A DNA stretch of 64,000 bases from positions 124,001-188,000 of the forward strand of contig NZ_JAKNUS010000002.1 in the NCBI RefSeq assembly GCF_023155745.1, written 5' to 3'. The notes under the pieces were generated by a model. That model saw only the letters and a list, made by a program, of their open reading frames with translations. It was not told where the DNA came from and did not search any database. Of this stretch, positions 7,664 to 20,827 are shown in pieces (within the stretch, counting starts at the first letter, position 1; each line of letters starts with the position of its first letter). Source of the DNA: Microbacterium kunmingense. GTDB lineage: Bacteria; Actinomycetota; Actinomycetes; Actinomycetales; Microbacteriaceae. The translations under genes and the position numbers were made by a program.

Positions 7664-7756
7664 TCATCCGATCCCCAACCGCAGGAGGAAGATCCCGGGG
7701 AACACCGCGAACAGCACGCTCAGCGGCAGGATGAGGAAGACCAGCGGCACGAGCAC
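7664..7756 (-). pseudogene. tadC: 3' fragment of tadC, separated by element insertion
   Basis: On the minus strand these 93 bases read as V-L-V-P followed by 'LVFLILPLSVLFAVFPGIFL' and a final L-R-L-G-I-G and stop. That is the C-terminal membrane helix of a TadC/type II secretion F protein. It has no start codon. It continues exactly from the 'IAMLVP' at the end of the other tadC fragment 12 kb to the right. The join lies inside the 12-base repeat shared by the two element ends. Seen directly; the fragment cannot be translated on its own. Confidence 0.9.
7744..7755. repeat. Left attachment-site repeat (attL)
   Basis: GCGGCACGAGCA, matching 19978-19989 with one mismatch (C/T at position 5). 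Left of it lies tadC 3' coding sequence; right of it, 19 bases away, starts the integrase. A short imperfect core is normal for large serine recombinases, which need only a 2-base crossover. The exact crossover dinucleotide cannot be fixed by reading. Confidence 0.75.
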
Positions 7757-7762
7757 TTGGTA

Positions 7763-7775
7763 TAGATTCTCCCTA
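7763..7775 (+). promoter_or_regulatory. Possible leaderless promoter of the integrase gene
   Basis: TAGATT (7763-7768) fits the actinobacterial -10 pattern TANNNT and ends 6 bases before the integrase ATG at 7775, the spacing expected when transcription starts on the A of ATG. No clear ribosome site precedes the ATG. Any -35 would fall in the attachment site itself, so integration and excision would change the upstream half of this promoter. Confidence 0.4.
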
Positions 7776-9211
7776 TGACCTCAACGCAGACACAGATGGC
7801 GGTGATCTACTGCCGCATCAGCGACGACCCCACCGGCCGCGCAGCTGGCGTCGATCGCCAGCGGGATGAATGCGCAGCGCTCGCCAATGCCAAGGGCGTC
7901 GAGGTCATCGACACGCTGGTCGACAACGACCTCAGCGCCACGACCGGGAAACGTCGCCCCGGGTTCGAGCGGGTCCTCGAGATGATCCGCGCCGGCCGCA
8001 TCGACACCATCGTCGTCTGGCACACCGACCGCCTCTACCGGCTCCCCCGCGACCTCGAGCCGATCATCGACCTCGCCGAGGGGCGACGCCTCCGGTTCCT
8101 CACCGTCGAAGCGTCAGAGATCGACCTGAACACCCCCGCCGGGCGCATGGCTGCGCGCATCCTCGCCGCAGTATCGGCGAACGAGGTCGAGCACAAGGCG
8201 CAACGCCAACGGTCCGCAGGTGATCAGCGGGCGGCGCGTGGGATGCCCACCTCACGCCCCGGGTACGGGTACCGCCGTGTTGACGGTCGCGACGTGATCA
8301 ACGAAGACGAAGCCGCGGTCATCACCGAGGCAGCACGCCGGGTGTTGAACGGCGAATCCCTCCGCTCGATCGCCGCCGACTGCAACATGCGCAAGATCCC
8401 CTCCCCCGCCGGCGCACCGTGGCAGCCCGTCACGCTCCGACAGCTCATTCAACGCCCGAGCCTCGCAGGGCTACGCACACACCGCGGGAAGGTTGTCGGA
8501 GACTTCGACCCCACCCTGCACCCAGCGATCCTTGACCGTGATACCCACGACCGTCTCGTTGCGTTCCTCACCGACCCGACACGGAGGACGGCAAACGTGG
8601 GCCACCCACCGAAGCACTTGCTGTCGGGCATCGCGATGTGTGGCCTGTGCGGTGACTCTCTGGGCGGGAAGATGAAGCGACTACCGCCGTGGACGCCGAA
8701 GCCGGGGCAGAAGTCGAAGCCGGTGAAGGCGGCGTACGCGTGCGACACCTGCCACAAGGTGAGGCGCCTGCAGGAACCTGTCGACGAGTTCGTGACCGAG
8801 GTGCTGCTGCGCAGGCTCGAGCGGGTCGACGCCGCGGAACTGTTCAGCACCGGCGACGCCGACGCAGCGAGGGAAGCACGCGACGCGATCGCCGCTGTCA
8901 ACGCACGCCTGGCGTCCGCTGCGGACTTGTTCGCTGACGGTTCGATCGACGCGGCCCAGCTGGAGCGCATTACCGCGCGTGGTCGTGCAGACCGGGAGCA
9001 GCTCGAGAGAGAGCTCGCCGCGGCGATGCCGCCGGCCATCCCGATGGAGGCGGTCGGTGAACGTGCCCGGGAGGTGTGGGCCGTGCTGGACGCTGAGAGA
9101 CGAAGAGCGATCGTGTCCGCGCTGATGCGGGTGACGATCATGCCGGCCGGGTCCGGCACCAGTTTCAACCCCGAACTCGTCCACATCGAGTGGGTGTCGG
9201 ACGGGCCGTAG
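7775..9211 (+). CDS. Large serine recombinase (site-specific integrase)
   Basis: 478 residues. The N-terminal resolvase domain has 'AVIYCRISDDPTGRAAGVDRQ', with the catalytic serine at residue 16, and Arg residues in 'DRLYRLPRDL'. A recombinase domain follows ('GYGYRRV...' at about 165), then a zinc-ribbon-like segment with CGLC and CDTC pairs at about residues 289-330, and a C-terminal coiled coil. This order is that of phage-type large serine integrases. The gene starts 19 bases from attL, as usual for these enzymes, which act on attP x attB and need a directionality factor to excise. Weak ribosome site; possibly leaderless. Confidence 0.95.
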   Translation: MTSTQTQMAVIYCRISDDPTGRAAGVDRQRDECAALANAKGVEVIDTLVDNDLSATTGKRRPGFERVLEMIRAGRIDTIVVWHTDRLYRLPRDLEPIIDLAEGRRLRFLTVEASEIDLNTPAGRMAARILAAVSANEVEHKAQRQRSAGDQRAARGMPTSRPGYGYRRVDGRDVINEDEAAVITEAARRVLNGESLRSIAADCNMRKIPSPAGAPWQPVTLRQLIQRPSLAGLRTHRGKVVGDFDPTLHPAILDRDTHDRLVAFLTDPTRRTANVGHPPKHLLSGIAMCGLCGDSLGGKMKRLPPWTPKPGQKSKPVKAAYACDTCHKVRRLQEPVDEFVTEVLLRRLERVDAAELFSTGDADAAREARDAIAAVNARLASAADLFADGSIDAAQLERITARGRADREQLERELAAAMPPAIPMEAVGERAREVWAVLDAERRRAIVSALMRVTIMPAGSGTSFNPELVHIEWVSDGP

Positions 9212-9228
9212 AGACTTGCGCTGTCGTC

Positions 9229-9343
9229 ATTCGGAGATTCCGAATCAGCGACGGTGCTTGAGGAGGAGACACCTGTCTCCTCCAGACGTCGGAAAGAGTT
9301 TCCGACGTCAACAGAAAATGCCCCCGCCGACTGGACCTCGGCG
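9229..9343. other. Cluster of four strong inverted repeats between integrase and next gene
   Basis: Four hairpin-forming units in 115 bases: ATTCGGA-gat-TCCGAAT (9229-9245), GGAGGAGACA-cc-TGTCTCCTCC (9262-9283), GACGTCGGAAA-gag-TTTCCGACGTC (9285-9309, 11 perfect pairs, 3-base loop), and CGCCGA...TCGGCG (9325-9343). None is followed by a T-run, so a simple intrinsic terminator is not obvious, though the last unit, GC-rich and just after AAAATG, could end transcription. They lie within the untranslated leader of the gene at 9377. Confidence 0.7.
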
Positions 9344-9376
9344 AGGGCGGGCGATCACATCGAAAGGGAAATGATC

Positions 9377-9745
9377 ATGAGCGACATTACCGAAGCAGAA
9401 CTGCTGGAGGAGTACTTCCGCGAGAAGGCGGTCGACGACGCCAAGGAAGCCGCGTACGTCGCGGCGAACCCGGAGATCCTGGCAGCCAAGCCGCACTGGG
9501 CGGAGAGCTACTGGCTCGAGGTGTCCGCGGACGACCGGTCCGCGGCGGGTGAGTGGACAATCGAGTTCGGTGTTGGGTGGCTGCACCAGGACTTCACCTA
9601 CGCTGACGGCGCGGTCACGACGTCCGGGGAAATTCGGGTGACGTTCGAGGACAAGCAGACCGGGGTTACGGCCGCGATGGTCCGGGAGTGGGCGACGGGG
9701 CTGACACGTGTGGCCGACCGTCTCGAAGAAGGTGCGGGGCGATGA
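9377..9745 (+). CDS. Hypothetical protein of the element
   Basis: 122 residues, not recognised. The ATG at 9377 is preferred because AAAGGGA lies 7 bases upstream; a second ATG is 6 bases earlier. The N-terminal third is an acidic helix ('ITEAELLEEYFREKAVDDAKEAAYVA'), the rest looks like beta-strand with several Trp. A short C-terminal helix has 'TAAMVREWATGLTRVADRLEE'. The stop overlaps the next ATG by 4 bases, so both genes are coupled. No signal peptide or membrane helix. Confidence 0.7.
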   Translation: MSDITEAELLEEYFREKAVDDAKEAAYVAANPEILAAKPHWAESYWLEVSADDRSAAGEWTIEFGVGWLHQDFTYADGAVTTSGEIRVTFEDKQTGVTAAMVREWATGLTRVADRLEEGAGR

Positions 9746-10308
9746 TCACCGCCGACATCGCCTCTTCAGCGGCTGAAAAGCTCGCCGAGATCAAGTCGGA
9801 GATCAACGATCTCGTGCGGCGCCGAGAGCAGCTGTTGGCGTCCGCGCTCGCCGAGCTCATTGCTCACCAGGTGCCCGCGCGGGTGATCAGCATGAAGGGC
9901 TGGACCGGGAACGCGTCGGCTGGTGACCGCGTCTACGTGCTGGATGCGTACGACAACGTCGGCCCACGACTGCGGACGCACACGAACCTGTTCAGCGTCG
10001 ACTCGGCATACCGGAGGAACTGGGGTCCGGAGGCGTACAACCTCGGCGTCCTCGTTCACCGTGGCCTGCACGAGGTGCTCCTCGTCGACGGCACCGACAT
10101 CCTCGCGGTCGCGATCGAAGAAGTCAGCGACGCCGACCACCGACGCGCGGTGCAACGACTCCGAACCGCCGCGCGCTACGACGGCATCCGTGTCCACGTC
10201 CGCGACCGCGAGGTGACGCTCGACGACGGGATGGGCAACACCCTGCACACGGGCGACGTCGAGTCCGCCTTCCACTGGTTGTTCAACATCGACCCGAACG
10301 AGAGGTGA
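9742..10308 (+). CDS. Hypothetical protein with N-terminal coiled coil
   Basis: 188 residues from the ATG at 9742, which overlaps the upstream stop (ATGA); the in-frame GTG further upstream lies inside the preceding gene and is not needed. Residues 5-35 form an amphipathic helix ('AAEKLAEIKSEINDLVRRREQLL'), likely a coiled coil. The remainder is mixed alpha/beta and soluble with no motif I recognise. It is followed directly by the hairpin array and tRNA-Arg. Confidence 0.7.
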   Translation: MITADIASSAAEKLAEIKSEINDLVRRREQLLASALAELIAHQVPARVISMKGWTGNASAGDRVYVLDAYDNVGPRLRTHTNLFSVDSAYRRNWGPEAYNLGVLVHRGLHEVLLVDGTDILAVAIEEVSDADHRRAVQRLRTAARYDGIRVHVRDREVTLDDGMGNTLHTGDVESAFHWLFNIDPNER

Positions 10309-10318
10309 CCGACCCGGG

Positions 10319-10397: not shown

Positions 10398-10405
10398 TCC
10401 CCCTC

Positions 10406-10477
10406 CCCCGTGTAGCTCAACGGATAGAGCAAGGATCTTCTACATCCTTTGTGCTGGTTCGAATCCAGCCGCGGGGA
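10406..10477 (+). tRNA. tRNA-Arg (anticodon UCU)
   Basis: Full cloverleaf by hand: acceptor CCCCGTG pairs with CGCGGGG (one G-T), D stem GCTC/GAGC, anticodon stem AGGAT/ATCCT around loop CTTCTAC with anticodon TCT, 4-base variable loop, T stem GCTGG/CCAGC around TTCGAAT, discriminator A. CCA is not encoded. It reads AGA, a codon expected to be rare in this high-G+C host. Location inside the integrated element, right after the hairpin array, makes it element-borne. No separate promoter is evident. Confidence 0.93.
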
Positions 10478-10489
10478 CTTGGCGACACG

Positions 10490-10563: not shown

Positions 10564-10569
10564 GTCACC

Positions 10570-10839
10570 ATGTCGAGAGGACCAGGCATCTGGCAACGAC
10601 AGATCCTCGACCGGATAGACGCCGGGAAGGTCGTCATCCTCACCAGCCCCGACCACACCCACGCGGAACAGAACGCCATCCGTCGCGCAGCGAACACGCT
10701 CGAGGCCAAGGGTGCGCTCAAGATCATCGCTGAGCGGGTCGACGGTCGGTCACGTCTCGTCGCCTGCCCGGTCGATATGAAGACGCCGCCATTCCGGACC
10801 CTGACGGGTTTAGACGGCAAGAAGTACAGGACGAAATGA
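10570..10839 (+). CDS. Small hypothetical protein, winged-helix-like
   Basis: 89 residues. The ATG at 10570 has GGAGG 6 bases upstream. The in-frame upstream extension runs through the tRNA gene and is not real. The sequence 'GIWQRQILDRIDAGKVVILTSPDHTHAEQNAIRRAANTLEAKGALKII' followed by 'SRLVACPVDM' has the helix-helix-wing rhythm of a small winged-helix protein. That is inference; no family was recognised. Stop overlaps the next ATG by 4 bases. Confidence 0.7.
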   Translation: MSRGPGIWQRQILDRIDAGKVVILTSPDHTHAEQNAIRRAANTLEAKGALKIIAERVDGRSRLVACPVDMKTPPFRTLTGLDGKKYRTK

Positions 10840-11288
10840 CTCGCACGCCTGGCGCGACGAAGGCGCGCCTCCACCGATATCAGCAGAACCTTCCGAGCAG
10901 CCTGCAGAACAGCCCGCCGCTCGTGACATGGCGCCACGACGCATGCAACAGCCGCATCCTCCGCCTCTACCTCCTCCCGGCAGGATGGCTCCTCGTCAGC
11001 GACGACGTCCGCGTTCCCCTTGCTGAGTGGATCGAGCGCGCCGGCGTGGACTACACCGTCGACGACTTCCGAGAAGGTCGCGTCGCTGCGTTCAACAAGC
11101 GGGAGGTGAAGGGGCACGAACGCCTACTCCCCCATGACGTGGACGAGTGGCCCGCCGGTGTCTTCGAGATCGGATGCCGAAAGCACGGCTTAGGGACTTA
11201 CCAGCTGAGCGATCTGGCAACCGACGCGCGGGAGGCTCGTGAGACACGCCGACGAGTTGAGCGGGCGAAGAGTCCGTCCCCCGTGTAA
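10836..11288 (+). CDS. Hypothetical protein of the element
   Basis: 150 residues, start overlapping the previous stop (ATGA). Soluble; no signal peptide. The middle has 'RLYLLPAGWLLVSDDVRVPLAEWIERAG' and the C-terminus is basic ('ARETRRRVERAKS'). Two cysteines, widely spaced. No motif recognised. Its position in the left-arm operon between tRNA-Arg and the replication gene suggests an early or regulatory role, by inference only. Confidence 0.65.
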   Translation: MTRTPGATKARLHRYQQNLPSSLQNSPPLVTWRHDACNSRILRLYLLPAGWLLVSDDVRVPLAEWIERAGVDYTVDDFREGRVAAFNKREVKGHERLLPHDVDEWPAGVFEIGCRKHGLGTYQLSDLATDAREARETRRRVERAKSPSPV

Positions 11289-11317
11289 CTTGTACTCCAA
11301 GACGTAGTGCCGCAAGG

Positions 11318-11369: not shown

Positions 11370-11371
11370 TC

Positions 11372-11638
11372 ATGTCCGAAGTTCTACAGGCCCGCTCCCG
11401 CAAAGCCGTCGCCGTTCGTCTCGGCGACGCACGCGCGGTCGAGGAAGCCTCACGGAATCTCGCTGCCGCAAAGATCGAGCAGTACATCCAGAAGGTCGTC
11501 GCCGAGGCGCCGCCGCTGAGCGCTGAACAGCGCGACCGGCTCGCGGGCCTCCTCCGCACCGCGGAACCCGCGGCCAAGGTGCTGCGCCGCCCCACCACCG
11601 TCAACGAGCGAATCATCTCGGGCGGTGACGTCGAGTGA
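11372..11638 (+). CDS. Hypothetical small helical protein
   Basis: 88 residues from the ATG at 11372; a GTG two codons earlier is possible. Mostly helical and charged ('DARAVEEASRNLAAAKIEQYIQKVVAEAPPLSAEQRDRLAGLLR'). The central 'PPLSAEQRDRLAGLLR' is a common ending of small actinophage and actinobacterial-island proteins of unknown function. Its leader folds into a three-way junction. GTGA overlap with the next gene. Confidence 0.7.
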   Translation: MSEVLQARSRKAVAVRLGDARAVEEASRNLAAAKIEQYIQKVVAEAPPLSAEQRDRLAGLLRTAEPAAKVLRRPTTVNERIISGGDVE

Positions 11639-11961
11639 GCCCAAATGAAAATCGCCCCGCGGCCAACGAGGCGATCTCCGAAAACAACAACCTCCCTCAG
11701 GATACGGCTGCTCATGGCGCGGTGAAGGAACTTTCTGCCTGGCTCCGCGGACGCATCTACGACGCCGTCAGGGCATGGCAGGACGCGGGATTCCCGGCGC
11801 GTATCGTCGCCACTCTCGGTGACTCCCCCGACAGCTGCTGCAGGTGCGGCGCTGCTTCACGGCGTCCCCTCCTCGTCACAGCGTCCACACCGGCCGGTCA
11901 GCTGCTGGTGTGCGGGATGCTCTGCCAGGCCTGCCACGAGCTCGAGGCGGTGACCCTGTGA
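11635..11961 (+). CDS. Small protein with paired cysteines (zinc-finger-like)
   Basis: 108 residues, GTG start overlapping the previous stop. The C-terminal half has CCRC at about residue 68 and 'CGMLCQACHE' at about 93-102, a C-x2-C / C-x2-C arrangement suited to one zinc ion. Between them is a beta-hairpin-like 'RPLLVTASTPAGQLLVCG'. The N-terminal half is helical and polar. Directly upstream of the replication gene and overlapping it by 4 bases, so likely a partner or regulator of it. Confidence 0.7.
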   Translation: MSPNENRPAANEAISENNNLPQDTAAHGAVKELSAWLRGRIYDAVRAWQDAGFPARIVATLGDSPDSCCRCGAASRRPLLVTASTPAGQLLVCGMLCQACHELEAVTL

Positions 11962-14201
11962 GCGCGCCTTTCGACACCGCCTGGAAGGCGTACCACGGCG
12001 CCGGGTGGCCCGTACTCCCACTCCCTGCGGGGCAGAAGACTCCCCCCCCGACCGGGACCACCGGAACAGGTGGCCTCCGCCTCACCACCCAGCAGCTTGA
12101 GCAGCACGTCGGTCGTGGGCTCAACATCGGGGTGCGGATGCCGAAACACATCATCGGCATCGACGTCGACCAGTACGGCAACAAGCACGGCTGGGACAAC
12201 CTCGAAGCGTTCCGAATCGTGCACGACCTCCCTCCGCTGCCCGCGACATGGCGGTCGACCTCGCGAGGCGTCGACAACCCGTCCGGGATCCGCTGGTATC
12301 GCGTGCCCGCCGGGTTCGTCACGTCCGGCGAGATCGTCGCCGGGGTCGAGACCATCCAGAATCACCACCGGTACGCGGTCGCCCCGCCGAGCGTCCACCC
12401 CGAGGGCCGCGCGTATCAGTGGGTCGACGACTCCGACACCGTCATCGAGGGCATGGTGCCGCCGTTCGCACTCCTCGCCGTCCTCCCCGACGAGTGGGTG
12501 CAGACACTCGACCCGCGCACCGCGGAGCAACGCGAGGAGACAGCGGCGCGAGAGAACAGTCCGCGGGCGCGAGCACTCCCCCACGAGCTCGCGGAGGCGT
12601 ACCGGTCATGGGTCGACGGGCTCGATGACGACGAACCGTGCGGGCTGGTGGCGGGCATCACCAAGAAGGCCACCCGCGGGCTCAGCAGCGACGACGGACG
12701 GTCACGCCACGACCAAGCCCTCGCCGCAACGGCAGCCCTCGTCAAATGCGCCTCAGAAGGCCACCACGGCGTCAAACGTGCCCTCGCCGACCTCCGGGAA
12801 GCGTTCGTCCTCACAGTCACGGAGGACGGCTCACGAGAGCCCCAGGAGGCGGAAGCTGAATGGTTGCGGCTCTTTGCGAACGACGACTATCGAACGGCGA
12901 TCGCGGGCGATCTGCCCGACCCGTGCGACGAAGACCTCCGGGAGCTGATCGGCAATCCCCCCACCTCTTCGGCCCCGGGTAGTTCGTCGCGTGACGACGA
13001 TCTACGGACCTCCGCAGACGACGACCTCGAGGCAGACATCGCCGAACAGGTCCGCCGGCTCCTCGTCAACGCGGAAGCACGCACACGGTTCGACCAAATC
13101 AACGCCGGACGCAAACAGGCCGACCCGCCGCACGTGCAACGCCTCGACGCGTTCCTCGCCGAACCAGACGAAGACACCGCCTACCGGATCGACGGATGCT
13201 TCCCCACCGGCGGGAACCTCGTCCTCGCCGCCCAATACAAAGCGGGCAAATCCACCCTCGTCGGGAACCTGCTGCACTCCCTCGCGGACGGCACAGACTT
13301 CCTCGGCACCTGGGCAACCAACCCTGCCGCGCGGATCGTGCTGCTCGACAACGAGCTCGACCCCCGCACCCTCCGCCGATGGTTGCGCGCCCACCAGATC
13401 CAGCACCCCGAACGCATCGACGTCGTCTCACTCCGCGGCGCCCTCTCCACGTTCGACATCCTGGACGCCACCACACGGGCAACATGGGCGGAACGCATCG
13501 GTCACGCCGACGTCCTCATCCTCGACTGCCTACGCCCCGTCCTCGACGCGCTCGGTCTCGACGAGAACCACGACGCCGGGCGGTTCCTCGTCGCGTTCGA
13601 CGAACTCCGCGCCGCCGCCGGTATCGACGAGTCCGTCATCGTCCACCACATGGGGCACAGCGGGGAACGCTCACGAGGTGACTCCCGCATCCTCGACTGG
13701 CCCGACGCCACCTGGAGGATCGTCCGCGAATCCGAAGACCCCGCCTCGCCGCGGTACTTCTCCGCCCTCGGACGCGACGTCAACGTGACAGAGGGGCTCC
13801 TGCAGTACGACCACGACACTCGGACGCTCACCTATGTCGGCGGCACGCGGCACCAGACGCGCGACGAGGGCGCCACGCTGCGAGCTGTCGACGCGGTCGC
13901 CGAGTTCGTGCGCAAGAGCCCCGGGTCATCAGGTGAAGCGATCAGGGCCGGAGTCGAGGGATTCGCGCGTAACATCCTCACCCGCGCACGAGAGATCGCC
14001 ACCGAGCGAGGCCTCATCGAGAAGCGGGCAAGGGAAGGTCGCGGCGGCGGATTCGCCTACTACCCCCCAACCCCGCCTAACCCCGCCGCAACCCCGCCCG
14101 GCGGAGTTCCAAACCCCGCCAACCCCGTATATAAGGCGGGGTTGGGGTTGGAGAAGTTCGAACACGAACCCCGCCCGGACGAAAACGAGGCGGAAGCATG
14201 A
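11958..14201 (+). CDS. Bifunctional prim-pol / RepA-like ATPase replication protein
   Basis: 747 residues; the GTG start at 11958 overlaps the upstream stop, and the longer ORF upstream is out of coding phase. Residues 1-170 match the prim-pol domain (PF09250 type): 'GWPVLPLPAGQKTPP', 'HIIGIDVDQYG' with catalytic Asp residues, and 'HHRYAVAPPSVHPEG'. At about 425 comes Walker A 'AQYKAGKST', at about 518 Walker B 'VLILDCLRP', then 'VIVHHMGHSGERSRGDSRI' as in RepA-type hexameric helicases (AAA_25). The C-terminus may be a winged helix. Such fusions replicate plasmids, ICEs and phage satellites. It implies an autonomous replication phase. Confidence 0.9.
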   Translation: MSAPFDTAWKAYHGAGWPVLPLPAGQKTPPPTGTTGTGGLRLTTQQLEQHVGRGLNIGVRMPKHIIGIDVDQYGNKHGWDNLEAFRIVHDLPPLPATWRSTSRGVDNPSGIRWYRVPAGFVTSGEIVAGVETIQNHHRYAVAPPSVHPEGRAYQWVDDSDTVIEGMVPPFALLAVLPDEWVQTLDPRTAEQREETAARENSPRARALPHELAEAYRSWVDGLDDDEPCGLVAGITKKATRGLSSDDGRSRHDQALAATAALVKCASEGHHGVKRALADLREAFVLTVTEDGSREPQEAEAEWLRLFANDDYRTAIAGDLPDPCDEDLRELIGNPPTSSAPGSSSRDDDLRTSADDDLEADIAEQVRRLLVNAEARTRFDQINAGRKQADPPHVQRLDAFLAEPDEDTAYRIDGCFPTGGNLVLAAQYKAGKSTLVGNLLHSLADGTDFLGTWATNPAARIVLLDNELDPRTLRRWLRAHQIQHPERIDVVSLRGALSTFDILDATTRATWAERIGHADVLILDCLRPVLDALGLDENHDAGRFLVAFDELRAAAGIDESVIVHHMGHSGERSRGDSRILDWPDATWRIVRESEDPASPRYFSALGRDVNVTEGLLQYDHDTRTLTYVGGTRHQTRDEGATLRAVDAVAEFVRKSPGSSGEAIRAGVEGFARNILTRAREIATERGLIEKRAREGRGGGFAYYPPTPPNPAATPPGGVPNPANPVYKAGLGLEKFEHEPRPDENEAEA

Positions 14202-14470
14202 ACCAAGGCGACCGCGCATACCGAGCCCTGCACCTCGCGCTCGCGGACGCTGACGCACCCGAGTGCAGCGGCGACCCGCGCTTCATCCTCGAGCACCGCC
14301 AGCTCGCCCCTGACGAGGTCAAACACCTCAGGCTCACAGTCTGCGGACCCTGCCCCCTCCGGACCCTCTGCCGCGAGTACGGAGACGCCGCACGCCCACA
14401 GGCAGGCATCTGGGGCGGAAAGGTCTACCCGCCACCAAAACCCCGCACACGGTCGGAGGTCGACCAGTGA
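14198..14470 (+). CDS. WhiB-family transcriptional regulator
   Basis: 90 residues. Four cysteines at 23, 49, 52 and 58 give the C-x25-C-x2-C-x5-C layout that holds a 4Fe-4S cluster, followed by the G-I-W-G-G turn (residues 70-74) that contacts the sigma factor. The C-terminus is short, with only a few basic residues. WhiB-like proteins are actinobacterial, and phages carry copies that alter host transcription (for example WhiBTM4). Overlaps the replication gene by 4 bases, so it is made with it. Confidence 0.88.
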   Translation: MNQGDRAYRALHLALADADAPECSGDPRFILEHRQLAPDEVKHLRLTVCGPCPLRTLCREYGDAARPQAGIWGGKVYPPPKPRTRSEVDQ

Positions 14471-14835
14471 GCCGCCTCATCCCCAACGGCGCCGTCATCC
14501 TCACCCCCGACGACGCCCGCGTCCTGTTCCAGATCGCCAACCTCGGCGAACTCCGCAGCCGCTACCGCGTCGGCAACACACACGCCTACCAGCTGCTCAC
14601 CGACATCACCCTCGCCGCCTTCACCCCTGCCGCACCCGGCAACGAACCGCGGCAAGAGACGGCATCCGAGAAGGCTGGATACATGACAGTCCCCCAGGTA
14701 GCGAGAGCAGCACGGCAAGCAGCCCGCACGGTCCGCCTCGCCTGCCAGAACGGGGACCTCCCCGCAGAGAAGACCGGCGGCGCCTGGATCATCCGCACCA
14801 CCGACGCCCACACCTACATCACCGCCCACACCTGA
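14467..14835 (+). CDS. HTH protein, excisionase/MerR-like
   Basis: 122 residues, GTG start overlapping the WhiB-like stop. Residues 75-122 ('MTVPQVARAARQAARTVRLACQNGDLPAEKTGGAWIIRTTDAHTYI') follow the HTH_17/excisionase plan: helix-turn-helix then a wing with a conserved Trp. The N-terminal part 'RSRYRVGNTHAYQLL' may be a second DNA-binding unit. It is the best candidate for the recombination directionality factor that a serine integrase needs for excision, or for a repressor. Confidence 0.65.
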   Translation: MSRLIPNGAVILTPDDARVLFQIANLGELRSRYRVGNTHAYQLLTDITLAAFTPAAPGNEPRQETASEKAGYMTVPQVARAARQAARTVRLACQNGDLPAEKTGGAWIIRTTDAHTYITAHT

Positions 14836-14849
14836 GAGGAACCAACACC

Positions 14850-15464
14850 ATGGCGACCATCACCGTCATCGAGAACCGGATCGACGAGATCCGCAACAAG
14901 GCCACCCAGATCCGGAACACCACCGCCCAGACGATCCGGGAGGTACGCGCCGACGCCCGCACCACGGCAGACGCGAAGAACGACGCCGTCGCCGAGCTCT
15001 CGGCCCGAGCGAACACCGCCATCCAGGCCGCTCACGACGAAGAGCTCGCGCTCCTCGACACCGAGATCACCTCGAGAGAGTGGGCTCTGTTCCGTGGCCT
15101 CGGCACCACCTCGGCCGACATCATCGCCCAGCGCGACGCGGAAGACCGTGCGCGCCGCATCGACACCGAACGGGAAGCCCGCGAGATCCTCGACACCGCG
15201 GTCGCATCCGCCGACCACAGCATGGCCCTCGCCGTGTTCCGCGCAGCCATCCGACAGGGCTGGGGCAACGTCATCACCGCGTTCACCAAGCGCTACCCCG
15301 ACAAGGCCACCGCCGCCGACGAACTCGCGAACCTCACCCACTTCCGCGACAACAACGACTTCGAACGCATGGGCATCTACTTCCCCTTCAGCGCACCCAA
15401 CGACGCATCATCGTTCGCCGACCGTGGCGAGACCAGCAGCATCGGCTCGACCCCGTTCGCGTGA
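14850..15464 (+). CDS. Coiled-coil protein of unknown role
   Basis: 204 residues with a good ribosome site (GAGAGGAA, 9 bases upstream). The first ~75 residues form a long charged helix ('ENRIDEIRNKATQIRNTTAQTI' onward), a second helix covers about 95-150, and the tail is Ser/Gly-rich. Abundance of Ala, Arg, Glu and Asp and no cysteines fit a scaffold-like or nucleoid-like protein. I did not recognise a family. Separated from the next gene by 107 bases. Confidence 0.65.
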   Translation: MATITVIENRIDEIRNKATQIRNTTAQTIREVRADARTTADAKNDAVAELSARANTAIQAAHDEELALLDTEITSREWALFRGLGTTSADIIAQRDAEDRARRIDTEREAREILDTAVASADHSMALAVFRAAIRQGWGNVITAFTKRYPDKATAADELANLTHFRDNNDFERMGIYFPFSAPNDASSFADRGETSSIGSTPFA

Positions 15465-15571
15465 CGATGACACCCCTGGCACCCACCCCCCAGCCCCTAG
15501 CGCTGAGAACCTCCGGGCTTAGCCGGAATCCCTCCCCGACTCGTACGCCGTGACCATCAGGAAGGTGTGAT

Positions 15572-16027
15572 GTGACCATTCAGGGCAGGTTGCTGCACGC
15601 GGTGGAACCCCCGCCGCCCCAGGAGTCGCGCGGGAAGCCGCATTACTCGGACGTCTTCAAGTCGAGCGCGGTCGCGCGGGTGCGGAGTGGTCAGAAGATC
15701 GCGCAGGTCGCTCGTGATCTCGGGATTGCTCGGAACACGTTGAAGGCGTGGATGGGTGACCCGGACACCGTTGCGCCGCCTGTCCCGTCGCCGACGTCGG
15801 AGACGTTGCTTGAGGCTGCTCGGTCGGGCTCCCGGTTGGCGGTTCTGATCGCGCTGCGGGACGAGGTCGCTGGGAAGATCGCCGCCGGCATCGCTGCGCG
15901 GGAACTGCCCACGAACGCACGGTTGCTCGACGAGCTCATGCGGGAGATCGAAGCGCTCGAGCGGGATGACGACCCGTACGACGCGGCGCTGATCCCCGAT
16001 GAGGACTTCGACCCGAGCATGGTCTGA
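15572..16027 (+). CDS. Small terminase subunit-like HTH protein
   Basis: 151 residues from GTG 15572, ribosome site GAAGG 7 bases upstream. Residues 28-62 ('FKSSAVARVRSGQKIAQVARDLGIARNTLKAWMGD') are a helix-turn-helix of the homeodomain-like type. The second half ('SRLAVLIALRDEVAGKIAAG' then 'LLDELMREIEALERDDD') is a helical oligomerisation-like region with an acidic tail, as in small terminases of actinophages. An IS3 OrfA-like protein has a similar HTH but no such C-terminus, and no transposase follows. Small terminases select DNA for packaging; satellites use their own to redirect helper packaging. Confidence 0.55.
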   Translation: MTIQGRLLHAVEPPPPQESRGKPHYSDVFKSSAVARVRSGQKIAQVARDLGIARNTLKAWMGDPDTVAPPVPSPTSETLLEAARSGSRLAVLIALRDEVAGKIAAGIAARELPTNARLLDELMREIEALERDDDPYDAALIPDEDFDPSMV

Positions 16028-16034
16028 GGCTCTG

Positions 16035-16304
16035 ATGACAGATACCGAAAAGACGATGGTCGAACTCATCGACGGTTCACTCGATCGGCTGGGGGTGCCA
16101 GCCGCGTGCGACTTGCGGACCGCGGCTATCGCACTGGCCCGGGTGTTCGACGGTGACGATCGCGCGGGCCACATGGCGCCCGCGTCTGCTGCGCTCCTCG
16201 ATCTGATGCGGGGCACGCGGGAGATATACGGGTCGCTGTCGCTGGAGGAAGCGCTCGAGATGTGGCTGACCCCCCTGACTGATGAAGGAGACACTGATGG
16301 CTGA
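16035..16304 (+). CDS. Hypothetical protein
   Basis: 89 residues from ATG 16035, 8 bases after the upstream stop. Helical: 'TMVELIDGSLDRLGVPAACDLRTAAIALARVFDGDD', then 'SAALLDLMRGTREIYGSLSLEEALEMWL'. No motif recognised. Its 3' end overlaps the start of the next gene by 8 bases, and the next gene's AAGGAG ribosome site lies inside it, so the two are coupled. Confidence 0.7.
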   Translation: MTDTEKTMVELIDGSLDRLGVPAACDLRTAAIALARVFDGDDRAGHMAPASAALLDLMRGTREIYGSLSLEEALEMWLTPLTDEGDTDG

Positions 16305-17466
16305 ACTGTCCGTCGACATCGACGTGAACACCGGCTCCGCCGTCTCGAACGTGGAGAAGCTGGGGCAGTCGTTCAGCGACGCTGCTAGGGAACTCCTTGA
16401 GATCGTCGACGCTGGCAAGCGTGCCGGGAAATCGACCGAGGACATCGCCCGTGACATCTCGAAGAAGTACGACGTCGCTTTCGATGATGCGAAGCGTGGC
16501 GTCGAGAAGCTCGAGAACGCACTCGAGGATGTCGGCCGGGAAGGCGGCCGCGCCGGCGACAAGCTCCAGGACGCCCTGAAGGACGTGGAGCGCCGCGCCG
16601 AGGACACCGGCGACGGGATCAAGAAGGGAATCGGGGACGGGCTCAGAGAGGCCGGCGACGAAGCGAAGCAGTCGGGTCGGGAAGCGGCAGCGTCGTTCAG
16701 TGGCGAGTGGACCGACGTCGGCGACTTCATCCAGGAGACTGTCGCGAACGGGCTCGGAGGGTTCGGGCCCCTCGGTGTCGCTGCCGGCATCGCGGGCGCC
16801 GCGGGGATCGGCCTCGTTACAAACGAGATCATCAAGCAGCAGGAAGAAGCGACACGTCTCAAGGAGTACTTCGCCGACGCCTATAAGAGCGCCGCCGAGG
16901 AAGGCCGAAAGTACCTCGACACCGCGACCATCCTGGCCGAGGCCAACAGCATCATTTTCGACGACGACCGCGCCAACGAGTACAAGGAGATCCTCGAGGA
17001 GAGCAACAAGCTCAACATCGACGCGAACACCCTCGTCCTCGCCCGCGCCGGCGACCAGGAGTCCCTGAACGTCGTGCTGCAGGCCACCGCCGACAAGGAA
17101 CGTGAGGTGAAGGCCGCGGCGGAGGAGGCAGGCTCCACTGCGATCCGCCTCGCCGGTAACGAGGTTCGCGAGCTCGAGAAGATCCAGGGGCGCTATGAGA
17201 ACATCGGGCAGCTGCACGGCGAGAACGCTGGGAAGCTCGCGAATGCGACCGGGATCGCGGCTCAGTTGCACCAGCAGGAGCGGGATCAGATCAACCGCAC
17301 GGCTGACACCGCCGCGGCTCGCTATGACGGGCTCGCTCGCCAGTATGGTGTTCCGCTCCGAGGGAAGGTAGTGATGGATGTGGACGACTCAGCCGTTCGC
17401 AACTACAAGCCCCCGTCCATCCGAGGCACCGTGCGGCTCTCGCCCGGTGTCGACCAGATCGGCTGA
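16297..17466 (+). CDS. Short tape-measure-like protein
   Basis: 389 residues from ATG 16297 with AAGGAG 8 bases upstream. The N-terminus 'ELSVDIDVNTGSAVSNVEKLGQSF' followed by long charged helices is the usual opening of phage tail tape-measure proteins. A hydrophobic stretch at about residues 151-172 ('GGFGPLGVAAGIAGAAGIGL') would be the membrane-insertion part, and helices follow to residue ~360. Typical tape measures exceed 700 residues, so this is either a truncated relic or a dedicated short protein. No other tail gene is present. Confidence 0.6.
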   Translation: MAELSVDIDVNTGSAVSNVEKLGQSFSDAARELLEIVDAGKRAGKSTEDIARDISKKYDVAFDDAKRGVEKLENALEDVGREGGRAGDKLQDALKDVERRAEDTGDGIKKGIGDGLREAGDEAKQSGREAAASFSGEWTDVGDFIQETVANGLGGFGPLGVAAGIAGAAGIGLVTNEIIKQQEEATRLKEYFADAYKSAAEEGRKYLDTATILAEANSIIFDDDRANEYKEILEESNKLNIDANTLVLARAGDQESLNVVLQATADKEREVKAAAEEAGSTAIRLAGNEVRELEKIQGRYENIGQLHGENAGKLANATGIAAQLHQQERDQINRTADTAAARYDGLARQYGVPLRGKVVMDVDDSAVRNYKPPSIRGTVRLSPGVDQIG

Positions 17467-17478
17467 CCCGAGGCGACA

Positions 17479-17808
17479 ATGGCACCCATGACCAGCAACC
17501 CCGCAGACCTGGATAGGCTCATGCTTCTAGTCCTCGATTACGCGCGCGCGAATGTCACAAAGGACTTCGAGCACACGCCGGACGAAGTCCGATTCACGCT
17601 TCCCGGTGGTGATGTGCAACCTCTCGTGACGGCGGCGGGTCTGCTCGTCGCCCAGTTCGCGGCGGAGCTTGCTCTGGCGCACGACACGACCCCTGAGCAC
17701 ATCATCGACATCATCCGCGGGACGCACGAGACACCCGACGAGGCCATCGAGAAGTTCCAACGCGACCTCGACGAGTTCGGCACCGGCCCCGATACGGTGA
17801 CCCCATGA
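17479..17808 (+). CDS. Hypothetical acidic protein
   Basis: 109 residues from ATG 17479 (GAGG 5 bases upstream); a second ATG is at 17488. Helical and acidic, with 'LLVLDYARANVTKDFEHTPDEVRFTLPGGDVQPLVTAAGLLVAQFAAELA' and an acidic C-terminus. No cysteines, no signal. Not recognised. Overlaps the next gene by 4 bases. Confidence 0.65.
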   Translation: MAPMTSNPADLDRLMLLVLDYARANVTKDFEHTPDEVRFTLPGGDVQPLVTAAGLLVAQFAAELALAHDTTPEHIIDIIRGTHETPDEAIEKFQRDLDEFGTGPDTVTP

Positions 17809-18113
17809 ACGCTCACGAGCAAAGCCGGAACCCATTCACAACATTCCTCACCGTGGCCGGCGCTCTAGCGCTCACGGCTGGTGTTCTGCTCGCCGTGTAC
17901 GCCTCAAGCGAGGCGAACAGGTACTCCAGCACGATGAGCACGGTCGAGGTCGCCGCGATGGGCGCGTGGAGCGACTTCCTCCTCCTCGTCGGCATCGTCG
18001 CCCTCATCGGCGCGACGGTCCTCGCGGGCGTTAGGTGGCTGCTCAGCGTGCCGGAAGCGCAGAAGGCCCCCGCGACCGGCGCCACGGATCACACCGCAGC
18101 AGACGGGCTGTGA
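17805..18113 (+). CDS. Two-helix membrane protein
   Basis: 102 residues. Two membrane helices: about residues 14-34 ('FLTVAGALALTAGVLLAVYAS') and about 52-78 ('GAWSDFLLLVGIVALIGATVLAGVRWL'). Between them is a short polar loop; both ends are likely cytoplasmic. Role unknown; small membrane proteins in this position of islands can be superinfection-exclusion or lysis-related factors, which is speculation. ATG overlaps the upstream stop. Confidence 0.7.
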   Translation: MNAHEQSRNPFTTFLTVAGALALTAGVLLAVYASSEANRYSSTMSTVEVAAMGAWSDFLLLVGIVALIGATVLAGVRWLLSVPEAQKAPATGATDHTAADGL

Positions 18114-18259: not shown

Positions 18260-18297
18260 AATCGACGCCTCTCGGCCGGAGGAAGGAACCCCGGCAC

Positions 18298-18613
18298 TTG
18301 GGCACCAACCGCAGATACGCGGACACCGTCGACCGTCAGATGAGCGACCGGGTCCTCGAGCGCACCGCCGCACAAGGCCCTCTGCAGACCCTCACGCGGG
18401 CGGAACTGCAGCTTGACGAGCTCCCCTGTACCACCGACCCGAAACCCCGCACAGTGCGCGCCTGGGTCAGGTTCGGGACGACACCGGTTCAGGTCGACGC
18501 GGAAGCGTGCATGTGGACACCCCGCGCCGTCGCGCTACGGTTCCGGGTCGCCCGGCAACGAATACCGATGCTGGGTGTGGTCGAGCGCTGTCGAGACCGC
18601 GTGGTCCGACTAG
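18298..18613 (+). pseudogene. Actinophage-type small protein with one-base frameshift
   Basis: TTG start after GGAGGAAGG. The opening 'GTNRRYADTVDRQMSDRVLERT' and 'LTRAELQLDELPCTTDPKPRTVRAWVRFG' match a protein family common in actinobacterial prophages and islands. At about 18551-18553 (CCC) the frame goes wrong. Skipping one base restores V-A-G-N-E-Y-R-C-W-V-W and ends at 18613, giving 104 residues. Two facts support that frame: the family usually ends with such a Trp-rich tail, and the restored stop meets the opposite-strand stop at 18610 with a 4-base tail overlap. Unshifted, the ORF would run 234 bases over that gene. A sequencing error is possible. Confidence 0.65.
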
Positions 18614-19020
18614 CTCGGGCCGCTCACGTTGGCCTTGAACCGCAACGTGGTTGGCTCAACCCCCTCGACCCGAAATTCAAGGTCGTAGACGCCTCCTGCG
18701 GGGAGCCCATACTCGAGGGGGAACGCAATCGGAAGATACGTAGGGGTATCGAGTTCAGGTGGTCCGTTGAACTCACCTGCGATATCGCCCCCGAGCATGG
18801 CGATCTGCTCACCGGCCGAGTTGGTCACCCTTATCGTGAATGACAACGAGATCGCCGTAGTCGACCCGTCGAGCTCCAGGTCCACGAGAACCGCCAAGTA
18901 GCATCCCATCGGCGCTGGGTATGCGGGCCGGTGGAGTTGAGTAACGCCGGCCGAGACGATGGTTAGGAGTCCATCTCGGACGCTCGCAAAGTCAGCGATT
19001 GTCGCGGTGGCAATCTTCAC
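18610..19020 (-). CDS. Unknown beta-rich protein, third gene of right-end cargo operon
   Basis: 136 residues. 'KIATATIADFASVRDGLLTIVSAGVTQL' at the start and alternating strands thereafter ('SLSFTIRVTNSAGEQIAML', 'GVYDLEFRVEGVEPTTLRFKANV') resemble DUF6941-type proteins, a beta-sandwich family of unknown role; that match is tentative. Start overlaps the upstream stop by 4 bases. The gene is on the opposite strand from the rest of the element. Confidence 0.7.
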   Translation of the reverse strand: MKIATATIADFASVRDGLLTIVSAGVTQLHRPAYPAPMGCYLAVLVDLELDGSTTAISLSFTIRVTNSAGEQIAMLGGDIAGEFNGPPELDTPTYLPIAFPLEYGLPAGGVYDLEFRVEGVEPTTLRFKANVSGPS

Positions 19021-19514
19021 GCGGCGACCCGGCGGTCTGCAAGCCGCACCCTTCGGAGCCCGCCGCGGGATGACCCATGGAACTGGACATGCATCTGAGA
19101 CCCAGAAGTCCGGGGTTGCACCGATGCGTGAGTCGAAAAGCCGTCCCAGTCAACGCTAAGAAAAATCAGGCGGTTCCCGTAGTCGACGTGCTCCACACGA
19201 CCGGTAGAGAGGAAGTCTCCGTCGTCGTCGGGCTGCATTGCGGTTACGAGTTCACCGACGTGGGGGACCTCGGAGACCTCTTCGAACCCCACAACAGCCC
19301 ACGAGGGGTTTCGTCTGCTCACTCGGTTCGGATTCACTGGCACGCGCTTGATCGACGAGGATACGCGTGGGCGAAGTGTATCGACGATGCGAGCGCCATC
19401 GGTGATGATGGCGCCGTCCAGGAGGGCATTGCCAATGATCACAGCATTAGTCACGGCACCTTTGATTGCAACGTTTGTCAGGGCACCGTTGAACAGGGTA
19501 CCGGCGATACTCAT
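19017..19514 (-). CDS. Unknown protein with pentapeptide-like N-terminus, second gene of cargo operon
   Basis: 165 residues. Residues about 5-43 show a hydrophobic residue every fifth position (L-T-N-V-A, I-K-G-A-V, T-N-A-V-I, I-G-N-A-L, L-D-G-A-I, I-T-D-G-A), like a short degenerate pentapeptide-repeat helix. The rest includes 'GELVTAMQPDDDGDFLSTGRVEHVDYGNRLIFLSVDWDGF', a likely small beta-barrel. C-terminus is Arg-rich. Overlaps both neighbours by 4 bases. Not recognised. Confidence 0.65.
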   Translation of the reverse strand: MSIAGTLFNGALTNVAIKGAVTNAVIIGNALLDGAIITDGARIVDTLRPRVSSSIKRVPVNPNRVSRRNPSWAVVGFEEVSEVPHVGELVTAMQPDDDGDFLSTGRVEHVDYGNRLIFLSVDWDGFSTHASVQPRTSGSQMHVQFHGSSRGGLRRVRLADRRVAA

Positions 19515-19903
19515 GAGAGCCTCTCTCTTGTCCTGGTCTCAAAGATTTGCTCTAACCTCACCATAGCGGCGTCGCTGGCTTGGCGTCCAAGGATCAGGTC
19601 GTGGTGATCTGGAGGCGGTTCCGATCTCACAAGGCGGAAACCCGCATTCGACAATTCCTTCTCGGTTACTACAGCCAGCCACCGAGCGTTGCGCGACTTC
19701 CGGATGGAGTTCTTTAGCTCATGGAGAGTGCGCTCGACGTCGCCGCCGTCGTGTGTCACGGCGAAAACCGAGATCGAGGCGGGCGGATCTGTGTCGCCTT
19801 CTGCGAGTCGGGAACGACGATCGATCTCCACGTCCTTTTCGATCTGTTCCTTCGTCCATCTCCACGCACGACCCACCAGCAACTCACCGGCGGCCAACTC
19901 CAT
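19511..19903 (-). CDS. Unknown protein, first gene of cargo operon
   Basis: 130 residues. Mixed alpha/beta: a basic/acidic helix ('WRWTKEQIEKDVEIDRRSRLAEGD'), a strand 'SISVFAVTHDGG', helix 'DVERTLHELKNSIRKSRNARWLAVVTEKELSNAGFRLV', then 'PPPDHHDLILGRQ'. No membrane helix. I do not recognise a family. It begins 75 bases inside the right attachment repeat. Its region is much poorer in G+C than the host (30 of 60 bases at 19501-19560, against 46 of 60 at 22021-22080). Confidence 0.65.
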   Translation of the reverse strand: MELAAGELLVGRAWRWTKEQIEKDVEIDRRSRLAEGDTDPPASISVFAVTHDGGDVERTLHELKNSIRKSRNARWLAVVTEKELSNAGFRLVRSEPPPDHHDLILGRQASDAAMVRLEQIFETRTRERLS

Positions 19904-19960
19904 GATTCGAGACTGTATCTCAGGACACGTAGGTAACTGGGCAGTTCGACGCTGGAAAGA

Positions 19961-20827
19961 TCAGAACTGAGTGTTGCGCGGTACGAGCATGGCGATCTCG
20001 TTCCGCCCCGCGCGTTCGATGAGGGCGCGTTTGGCCTCCTCGCGGGCGTCGAGTGCCTGCGCGTGGAGGACCTGGGCCAGCGGTGCGCCGCGGTCGATGG
20101 CGGCGACGAGATGATCGACGGCGCGGGAGACAGCGGGCGAGTCCACCCGTGAACCCAGATCGATGAGGGCATCGGAGAGGGAGGAGCCCGTTCCGACGGC
20201 GACGACCGCGGCGCGCACTTCCGCCGTCACCTCGCCTCCCTCCAGATTACCGACGCGACGCAGAGCGTCGAGCATGCCCTCACCGGCCGAGAGGCAGAGG
20301 GCGAGGAACTCCAGCACGGTGGGCAGTTCGTCCTCGATGCGGGCCCGGCGCTGCCGGGCGGCGCGCGACAGTCGCAGATCGCAGGCCATCGCTCCCCCCA
20401 CCGCGAGCAGCGGAGGGAGCACGGCCAGCGCCGCGGATCCGCGACCGGCGAGGACGAGAACGACGACGATCACGGCGCCCACGACGAGGCCCGCGAGGGC
20501 GAGCGCCAGCTGGCGTCCGCGGAAGGTCGTGACGTCGCTCGCCCACCCCGCTTGGCGGAGGCGTCGCTCGATCGCGGTCGACCCGCCCAGGCGAGCGGTG
20601 AGCGCTTCCTTCGCCTGCTGCCAAAGGGCGGCGACATCGTCGCCGAACCCTATCGTCGCGGGTGTGACGCCGATCGGATCGGTGATGTCGCGGATGTAGG
20701 GGGCGATGCGTTGACTCAGCGACGCCGAGCGCCACCGGGGAACGCGCGAGAGCAGGAGCAGAAGTCCCGCGCCGAAGGCGACGCCCAGGACGATCGCGAG
20801 CGACGCGTCGGTGAGGGCGAGGGTCAT
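19961..20827 (-). pseudogene. tadC: 5' fragment of tadC (type II secretion F domain), cut by element
   Basis: 288 codons from the ATG at 20827, which overlaps the tadB stop. The product has N-terminal membrane helices, a cytoplasmic T2SSF domain ('LPTVLEFLALCLSAGEGMLDALRRVGNLEGGEVTAEVR') and 'RAGRNEIAMLVP', then five foreign residues (R-N-T-Q-F) and a stop. The missing final 26 residues, including the last membrane helix, are at 7664-7743. The join restores a TadC of about 309 residues. The truncated product would lack its last helix and is probably inactive, so the pilus is probably off while the element is integrated. Confidence 0.9.
19978..19989. repeat. Right attachment-site repeat (attR)
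   Basis: GCGGTACGAGCA, the partner of 7744-7755. To its right the sequence is tadC coding (minus strand, ending in I-A-M-L-V-P); to its left the tadC frame runs into element DNA and stops after R-N-T-Q-F. Confidence 0.75.

Follow-up and report, generated by a model that had tools for sequence, protein, structure and literature searches.

The window, a stretch of 64,000 nt from Microbacterium kunmingense, contains an integrated element that encodes, as judged from its sequence, a full-length tape-measure protein (TMP) belonging to the mini-siphophage family; no further tail or head gene was recognized in it. With moderate confidence, we explain the element as an actinobacterial phage satellite that diverts packaging to its own DNA and makes virions with chimeric tails, a mechanism that we infer from its genes, as we do the existence of a helper.

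Borders and gene content of the element

The tadC gene was found to be split in two by the cores GGCACGAGCA and GGTACGAGCA (Table 1). Its main part is enclosed in an ORF (19961-21028) that matched T2SSF at 1.1e-11. The joined 156-nt flanks were used as the query against 58 genomes, and a junction match was counted if it started at query position 30 or earlier and ended at position 120 or later. An uninterrupted tadC site was found in 27 of the 57 genomes beyond the window's own. These matches across the junction mean that 12,234 bp have been inserted precisely at this site. The only tadC occupants seen were related islands (L081 and L107). The sequence shows integration of the element in tadC at a short core and a replication gene of its own.

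Table 1. Features of the element and its insertion site in the window
Feature	Positions	Strand	Evidence or remarks
Element	7756-19989		12,234 bp (12.2 kb) insert in tadC; core positions and uninterrupted sites
tadC 3' end LVFLILPLSVLFAVFPGIFLLRLGIG	7667-7744	-
Left core (attL) GGCACGAGCA	7746-7755		sequence; within tadC
Large serine integrase, 478 aa	7775-9211	+	PF00239 7.8e-30, PF07508 4.7e-12, phrog_95 1.1e-96; 92% to G100 element, 75% to Microbacterium sp. SZ1
g2, no assigned function	9371-9745	+	33% to G100 element
g3, no assigned function	9742-10308	+	53% to G100 element
tRNA-Arg (TCT)	10406-10478	+	ARAGORN; also in G100 element
g4, small conserved protein	10570-10839	+	93% to G100 element, dN/dS 0.07
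g5, no assigned function	10836-11288	+
g6, small protein	11372-11638	+	common to integrase relatives L107, L108, L109, L112
g7, small Cys-containing protein	11635-11961	+	92% to G100 element
Prim-pol and RepA-type ATPase (replication)	11958-14201	+	PF09250 (Prim-Pol) 2.1e-18, PF13481 (AAA_25) 1.6e-22
WhiB-like regulator	14198-14470	+	PF02467 1.3e-5; 90% to G100 element
Excisionase/RDF-like (Xis-like) HTH_17 protein	14467-14835	+	PF12728 1.1e-5 (slightly below Pfam cut-off); phrog_10045 3.5e-4
g10, no assigned function	14850-15464	+	34% to G100 element
Small terminase (TerS)	15572-16027	+	phrog_1459 1.7e-8
g12, small protein, candidate assembly partner	16035-16304	+	between TerS and TMP
TMP, 389 aa	16297-17466	+	homology to mini-siphophage TMPs
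g14, small protein	17488-17808	+	immediately 3' of TMP
g15, small protein	17805-18113	+	membrane by eye; homologues in L087, L091, L099
Cargo protein, DUF6941	18610-19020	-	PF22091 9.1e-8
Cargo protein, no assigned function	19017-19514	-	matches no family
Cargo protein, no assigned function	19511-19903	-	no significant family match
Right core (attR) GGTACGAGCA	19980-19989		sequence
tadC main part	19961-20827	-	gene call

The original prediction had recognized a block of integrase, replication and packaging-like genes, which was confirmed with the borders given above. The serine integrase, the prim-pol/RepA ATPase and the excisionase-like protein were all borne out by family matches. The predicted absence of large terminase (TerL), portal, capsid, protease, lysis and conjugation genes also held, and none of these families was found in the element proteins scanned against Pfam and PHROG. 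The WhiB-like gene, the tRNA-Arg (TCT) and the three minus-strand genes (18610-19903) had been overlooked. A second match to the tRNA was searched for in the host genome, and none was found. No Pfam family was matched by the U gene or by g4, the latter scanned in Pfam and PADLOC only, and no homologue of g5 was found in the G100 element. PADLOC detected no defence system in 10 element proteins, g10 alone having a weak ZorA-like match (E 0.033).

The tape-measure protein and its neighbours

A short tape-measure-like protein had been predicted. Its identity was upheld by homology to the TMPs of mini-siphophages, and far from being a minor component, it turned out to be the most interesting gene of the element. 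It had no PHROG match at E<=0.1, and its Pfam matches were all under the model cut-offs. It was homologous to annotated TMPs of phages of 15-17 kb (Corgi, 7e-4; PensacolaC28, 0.03) and to many mini-prophage TMPs, and its relatives are the TMPs of very small siphophages of this size.

The two genes flanking the TMP gene, g12 and g14, had no PHROG match. The g12 protein is 55-57% identical to that of the G100 element (dN/dS 0.22); its AlphaFold model was weak (pLDDT 68.5), and Foldseek gave no fold match at E<=0.001. Profile comparisons supported neither g12 as a mini-phage TerS (E 0.42) nor a relationship between g12 and g14 (E 0.14). A gene matching the g14 profile was present in 6 of 8 elements with a lone TMP, and five of these six belonged to the profile's own seed; support for g14 is therefore weak by sequence and comes mainly from its position. 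Either g12 or g14 may be a partner of the TMP, with a putative role in tail assembly.

The small terminase stems from a different phage lineage

The small terminase claimed in the original prediction withstood comparison with terminase families, as its residues 73-149 matched phrog_1459, "terminase small subunit". The N-terminus matched HTH_Tnp_1 (3e-7). The TerS of Kumotta is 43% identical over half the protein, and 49% and 48% identity was found to genes directly upstream of TerL in the G042 and G188 prophages, respectively. Because these prophage relatives adjoin TerL directly on its upstream side, comparison supports the view that the protein is a real small terminase of a true phage lineage, carried without TerL. 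A TerL of the matching type was not found in G000 or G100. A profile comparison with the gene preceding TerL in L017, L087 and L091 gave no support for a relationship (E 0.28). The AlphaFold model of TerS was weak (pLDDT 66.8), and no Foldseek match was obtained with it at E<=0.001.

Phages of this TerS lineage have genomes of about 38-40 kb (Kumotta 40.3 kb, Shoya 37.8 kb), and their TMPs are long (about 1,055 residues in the G042 prophage and 1,142 in Kumotta). The TMP of the element resembles those of 15-17 kb phages and its TerS those of phages of about 38-40 kb, and thus two lineages are represented.

The same block occurs at the same site in a second genome

In G100, the same block was found at the same site, with the conserved order int...TerS-g12-TMP-g14 and with a different primase/helicase in place of the prim-pol/RepA protein (at most 10 candidates for relatives of this type were scored per genome). 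This second occurrence shows that the element is no fresh deletion. A longer prophage in relatives was looked for, and G100, the one related genome among the matches listed, has the short form; TerL, portal and capsid genes were absent from the block both in the window and in L081. The dN/dS values were below 0.6 in 10 of the 12 genes compared (int 0.10, TerS 0.34, g12 0.22, TMP 0.59) and high in g10 (about 1.0) and xis (about 0.8). The original classification of the element as a phage satellite, and as neither a prophage nor an ICE, was supported, and it withstood both checks that had been set for it: the match of TerS to a terminase family and the short form of the block in G100.

Lone tape-measure genes in other elements

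At least 60 loci with TMP homologues exist (at most five candidates were scored per genome), and their genes were called with our own codon-usage script, not a standard gene finder. Of the 60 loci examined, 48 adjoin TerL, portal and capsid genes, and eight are satellite-like elements with a lone TMP. The 60 include L207, another prophage without a TMP-profile match, L024 (G071), which is outside the genus, and three loci (L088, L092 and L201, two of them at contig ends) with a capsid piece where TerL and portal were not seen; the two rows listed for G041 represent one gene.

In a TMP tree of 59 of the 60 loci, the satellite TMPs were scattered among phage TMPs, with seven label changes, at least six of which were forced by well-supported branches. 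This scatter indicates repeated movement of TMP genes between satellites and phages. The TMPs of satellites (344-476 aa) and phages (345-563 aa) are similar in length, and the former retain mini-phage-like N- and C-terminal regions. One mini-phage TerL query had no match in 7 of the 8 satellite hosts, and each of these seven had a single TMP match among the at most five candidates scored per genome. Other lone-TMP elements have different integrases and conserved genes of their own. Two relatives by integrase (L107 and L109) and the element L188 contain a capsid gene, and TerL and portal were not seen in them. Scans of viral contigs yielded no confirmed relatives for the prim-pol, the TerS or the U gene; the integrase retrieved six distant ones, none of which matched the TMP profile or the TerS of the element.

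A likely mini-phage cos sequence was found in three other satellites, exactly in L097 and L196 and as a variant in L015. For PensacolaC28, a phage that has been isolated, the record terminates in this sequence, and Corgi lacks it. It was absent from the window element at up to three mismatches, and a single two-mismatch match elsewhere in the window is at chance level. The window element has TerS in place of the cos sequence.

A proposed satellite with a chimeric tail, and alternative explanations

We propose that a helper phage would induce the satellite, which would be excised by the integrase and the Xis-like protein and replicated by the prim-pol/RepA protein. The satellite TerS would dock on the helper TerL and thereby redirect packaging to satellite DNA. 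The satellite TMP, perhaps together with g12 or g14, would take the place of the helper TMP, and the resulting virion would have a chimeric tail in which the satellite TMP is surrounded by the tube and tip proteins of the helper. An experimental precedent, by analogy, is the TMP of the PLE11 satellite in chimeric tails (PMC12987554). More tentatively, "tail-rewriting" satellites may make up a broad class in actinobacteria, repeatedly capturing mini-siphophage TMPs and swapping them like cassettes, which would give them control over the tails, and hence the hosts, available to them. Its members would be built differently, with serine or tyrosine integrases, TerS- or cos-based packaging and, in some cases, a capsid gene of their own; the window element would then join the TerS of 40-kb phages to the TMP of 15-kb phages.

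Alternatively, the TMP could be a weapon, a decoy that is produced either in the lysogen or while the helper grows, poisons helper tail assembly and stays outside satellite virions. We regard this as rather unlikely, although satellite interference with tail assembly is documented for Tai (PMC11364771) and Rta (PMC12987554): a weapon would not need a phage-like length and both mini-phage-like ends, a weak argument since a decoy might also be full-length.

The phage descent of both TerS and TMP and the fast evolution of g10 and xis would fit a decayed prophage in which most structural genes were deleted and terS and the TMP gene were left by chance. However, the two genes stem from different phage lineages, two species share the block at the same site under mostly purifying selection, other lone-TMP elements have other integrases and conserved genes of their own, and the mini-phage TerL query matched only one of eight satellite hosts. 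Decay is thus improbable, and it was rejected as the main reading.

There is a similarly slight chance that one Kumotta-like phage of about 40 kb is the helper for both tail and packaging, so that the satellite TMP would lead to much shorter tails. The relatives of TerS in such phages agree with this, as does the size of the element, about one third of such a genome, but the TMP matches in the phage collection were 15-17 kb phages only, and the Kumotta-like G042 prophage was not among the TMP matches listed (at most five candidates scored per genome). A conjugative AICE-like element with phage genes as passengers is very improbable: prim-pol, Xis and integrase are parts of AICEs, but so is a TraB/FtsK-type translocase, and neither this nor any other conjugation family was found in the element proteins scanned.

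Comparison with known systems

The element resembles PICIs in its size of about 12 kb, its integrase, replication module, HTH regulator and TerS, and in the absence of recognized lytic genes. PICIs have been delineated by the organisation of integrase, replication module and master regulator, a size of about 12-15 kb, an att site never occupied by prophages, phage-dependent induction, helper interference and packaging, and the published screen demands the absence of phage structural genes (PMC6092414). The element falls within this size range at 12,234 bp and has the integrase, prim-pol/RepA, HTH_17 and WhiB proteins; no master regulator was identified. As it adds a virion structural gene, the TMP, the original label "PICI-type" was not supported as stated.

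The cf-PICIs and Mulch/Flayer likewise have partial sets of virion genes, and actinobacterial cases are known (PMC10690885). Their sets include capsid and portal genes together with those for the large and the small terminase subunit, whereas the element has only TerS and TMP. The small siphophages (Corgi, Microbacterium Cluster EE and PensacolaC28) share its TMP family, and PensacolaC28, but not Corgi, shares the likely cos with related satellites; in contrast to the element, they are complete phages with TerL, portal, a protease-capsid fusion and lysis genes.

In the literature searched, with subscription papers and preprints beyond its scope, PLE and Tai were found and no actinobacterial TMP satellite; a conference report on novel mycobacterial satellite phages, as far as its text was available, does not mention a TMP (PMC12908700). 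The closest likeness is to PLE of Vibrio cholerae (PLE11), which also encodes a TMP without a full tail module. In 2026, PLE was presented as the first family of satellites known to remodel the tails of a helper by means of a TMP of their own, and the same paper pointed out putative tmp genes in PLE-like elements and in cf-PICIs (PMC12987554). The helper of PLE is lytic and has contractile tails, and PLE carries TAC and BhuB genes and a TMP that shares about 20% identity with the helper TMP (PMC12987554), whereas the element has an actinobacterial host, a serine integrase, TerS, a mini-siphophage-type TMP and no recognized TAC or BhuB. Here, a gene of this kind occurs outside the phylum of PLE and, within a single genus, in several islands that differ in build. 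There are traces of its repeated capture from small phages that can be named, and three other satellites share a likely packaging sequence with these phages. Control of tails by satellites can thereby be tested in soil bacteria that are grown in the laboratory and have small phages of known sequence.

Insertion site and gene content of the element

In the window, tadC is interrupted by a precise insert of 12,234 bp, measured from core to core. Of 57 other genomes searched, 27 have an uninterrupted tadC site that matches the joined flanks, at identities of no more than 86%, and an element of the same type occurs in a second species (genome G100, locus L081). The original prediction of a phage satellite with a serine integrase is supported. 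Family matches were obtained for the serine integrase, Prim-Pol plus AAA_25, WhiB, HTH_17, the small terminase (TerS) and DUF6941. As predicted, family searches revealed no large terminase (TerL), portal, capsid, protease, lysis or conjugation families among the element's proteins. We regard it as a real satellite of ordinary size that carries an unusual gene.

Coordinates of features in the window element and other loci
Feature	Locus	Position	Strand
Insert in tadC	window	between 7746 and 19989	
Recognised genes, integrase to g15	window		+
tRNA-Arg(TCT)	window	10406-10478	
tRNA-Arg(TCT)	L081	8335-8407	
Prim-pol/RepA	window	11958-14201	
Primase/helicase	L081	10015-12000	
DUF6941 gene and two others, right end	window	18610-19903	-
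Capsid gene (phrog_10)	L107 (in tadC), Microbacterium sp. SZ1	14231-15412	
Capsid gene (phrog_10)	L109, Terrabacter	15365-16477	
Serine-integrase island	L129, Microbacterium sp. ASV81	14583-17517	
Tad locus, integrase relative	L108	1-10243	
Mini-prophage	G000:C3	~21.6-38.6 kb	
Capsid protein, head protease, TMP	L188	7354-10553	
Fic/DOC-family protein	L095	11399-12346	
Fic/DOC-family protein	L015	8389-9765	
Cos-like sequence	L097	8295	
Cos-like sequence	L196	10368	
Cos-like sequence	L211, PensacolaC28 record	end	

The G100 element occupies the same tadC site with the same gene order. Identities to the window element were 92% for the integrase, 90-93% for g4, g7 and WhiB, 69% for TerS, 57% for g12, 45% for the tape-measure protein (TMP; N-terminal two thirds) and 29% for g14, compared with 75% for the host tadC genes. 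The replication gene is swapped between the otherwise syntenic elements, L081 encoding a different primase/helicase. By a simple counting method, dS varied between genes from 0.24 to 1.83, as expected of mosaic elements. The three minus-strand genes were not seen in the G100 element and are likely variable cargo. A tRNA-Arg(TCT) gene, which had no second match in the window's host genome (G000), lies at the same place in both elements; it may help to read AGA codons, or it may be the trace of an old integration event.

Among 35 integrase relatives in genome_contigs, of which part of the genes were covered, no match to the TMP or small-gene profiles was found. The nearest named carrier, Microbacterium sp. 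SZ1 (integrase identity 75%), has a capsid gene, as does Terrabacter (40%). In the ASV81 island, a TerS (phrog_1496, 5.1e-15) accompanies a TMP of 713 aa from another family (phrog_305, 4.4e-45), and no capsid or portal was seen. Portal and protease-capsid genes are present in L112 (Prescottella), which may be a prophage. One contig labelled Stenotrophomonas maltophilia carries a tad locus that by eye is of actinobacterial type, with an integrase relative (48%), and is probably contamination.

The small terminase

The predicted small-terminase-like protein was supported by a match of its C-terminal half to terminase family phrog_1459 (1.7e-8; 3.6e-12 for the G100 copy). TerS of Arthrobacter phage Kumotta matched half of the protein at 43%; a fold search did not help toward its identity. 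At E<=0.001, with at most 10 candidates scored for each genome, matches occurred in at least 73 of the 366 genomes of the genus. Among the matches listed, E values fell below 1e-10 at just five places: the window, G100, a prophage each in G042 and G188, and G252, where the match is short and lacks the support of a called gene on the contig. The many weak matches span mainly the N-terminal HTH region, and most are read as transposase-type HTH proteins. In both prophages the TerS-matching gene lies directly upstream of TerL. The block recurs in G100, and TerL is absent beside TerS there and in the window; TerL of the G042/G188 type had no match in G000, G100 or G252.

Tape-measure proteins with and without a phage cassette

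The window TMP was not recognised by PHROGs or Pfam, and its predicted function was substantiated by homology to annotated TMPs of 15-17 kb phages. Matches were found in at least 51 of the 366 genomes, with at most five candidates scored for each. Up to 20 kb was fetched around each match, which gave 59 separate loci; one more from outside the genus brought the set, the window included, to 60. Profiles for mini-phage TerL, portal and capsid were built from four loci. All three genes lay near the TMP in 48 loci, only a capsid piece in three, and one locus was another prophage. Capsid genes of the cassettes encode 464-642 aa in 47 of 48 cases (389 aa in L085), in keeping with the fusion of protease, scaffold and capsid that PMC7302621 describes in small actinobacteriophages. 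In the remaining eight loci all three were absent: the window, L081, L015 (G011), L095 (G357), L097 (G099), L196 (G360), L203 (G173) and L188 (G315).

The elements with a lone TMP have the look of genuine units. L015, L095, L097, L196 and L203 all have a conserved gene, U, whose product bears a Cys-rich motif at its C terminus, and a g14-profile gene follows the TMP in six of the eight. The profile seeds came from some of the same members; matches outside the seeds were U in L196 (6e-28) and L203 (8e-25) and a g14-type small gene in L196 (6.9e-6). The five U-bearing loci also contain a Phage_integrase-domain gene, adjoined by a tRNA gene in L095, L097 and L196; the integrase of L203 (249 aa, with insertion-sequence-like genes close by) is perhaps truncated. 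Fic/DOC-family proteins are possible cargo of L095 (Pfam 6.3e-13) and L015 (8.6e-11). No integrase was detected in L188, where two Xis-like genes adjoin a cluster of tRNA genes. Its capsid and protease genes, of another family, lie beside the lone mini-phage-type TMP. TerL and portal were not found in this small element, which reads as a putative capsid-plus-TMP satellite.

Could these elements be fragments of resident phages? In seven of the eight hosts, a search with one divergent mini-phage TerL found nothing, and each of the seven has a single TMP match among the matches listed, which argues against this for most of the elements. The eighth host, G000, contains a mini-prophage with TerL, portal, capsid, tail and recombinase genes.

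Exchange of TMPs between satellites and phages

In a tree of 59 TMPs (428 of 874 gappy alignment columns kept), the eight satellite TMPs do not form a single group. Satellite and phage labels change seven times, at least six changes being forced by well-supported branches, and satellite labels were no more clustered than shuffled ones (159 of 500 shuffles as low). TMPs have thus been exchanged repeatedly. The TMPs of the window and L015 form a pair on long branches (99/86), and the G100 TMP is joined to the phage TMP of L208 (97/68). Individual placements are rough because of the gappy columns, the long L095 branch and probable recombination of TMPs. Over the first 100 residues, the TMPs of the window and G100 agree at 75 positions, against 77 of 267 in the remainder, suggesting replacement of the body behind a retained N-terminal domain.

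A cos-like sequence and the putative helpers

A noncoding stretch with the core CCCCCGCCTTCGGCTC is common to satellites L097 and L196 and to mini-prophages. With up to two mismatches, 23 of 48 cassettes have this core in the 700 nt that precede TerL (11 exact), the resident G000 mini-prophage being one of them, and 25 do not. In 200 rounds each, shuffled regions averaged 0.08 (maximum 2) and stretches drawn at random from the same loci 0.5 (maximum 5). In the record of PensacolaC28, an isolated Microbacterium phage, TerL lies at the first bases and HNH at the end, and the end itself falls inside this sequence; Arthrobacter phage Corgi has no such end. Because of its position before TerL and the PensacolaC28 end, the sequence is most likely cos.

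Exact copies in L097 and L196 compare with 5e-5 and 6e-5 expected from base composition. L015 has a variant with three mismatches in a similar setting; at this level about one match occurs per shuffled locus of about 20 kb, so the variant rests on its setting. At up to three mismatches, the match of L203 falls within its TMP gene, and none was found in the window, L081, L095 or L188. The shared sequence supports mini-phages as candidate helpers of the cos-bearing satellites and, indirectly via these, of the window element.

Comparison with known satellites

PICI criteria are given in PMC6092414, and Mulch/Flayer are treated in PMC10690885. Satellites also block tail assembly, by Tai (PMC11364771). 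For the window element we infer a helper, redirected packaging and a chimeric tail; membership among the PLEs is not claimed. In PLE11, the satellite TMP leads to chimeric tails, and loss of tmp lowers transfer by some 96, 99 and 99.9% in PLE1, PLE4 and PLE11, respectively (PMC12987554). Among the systems compared, this is the closest precedent for the window element.
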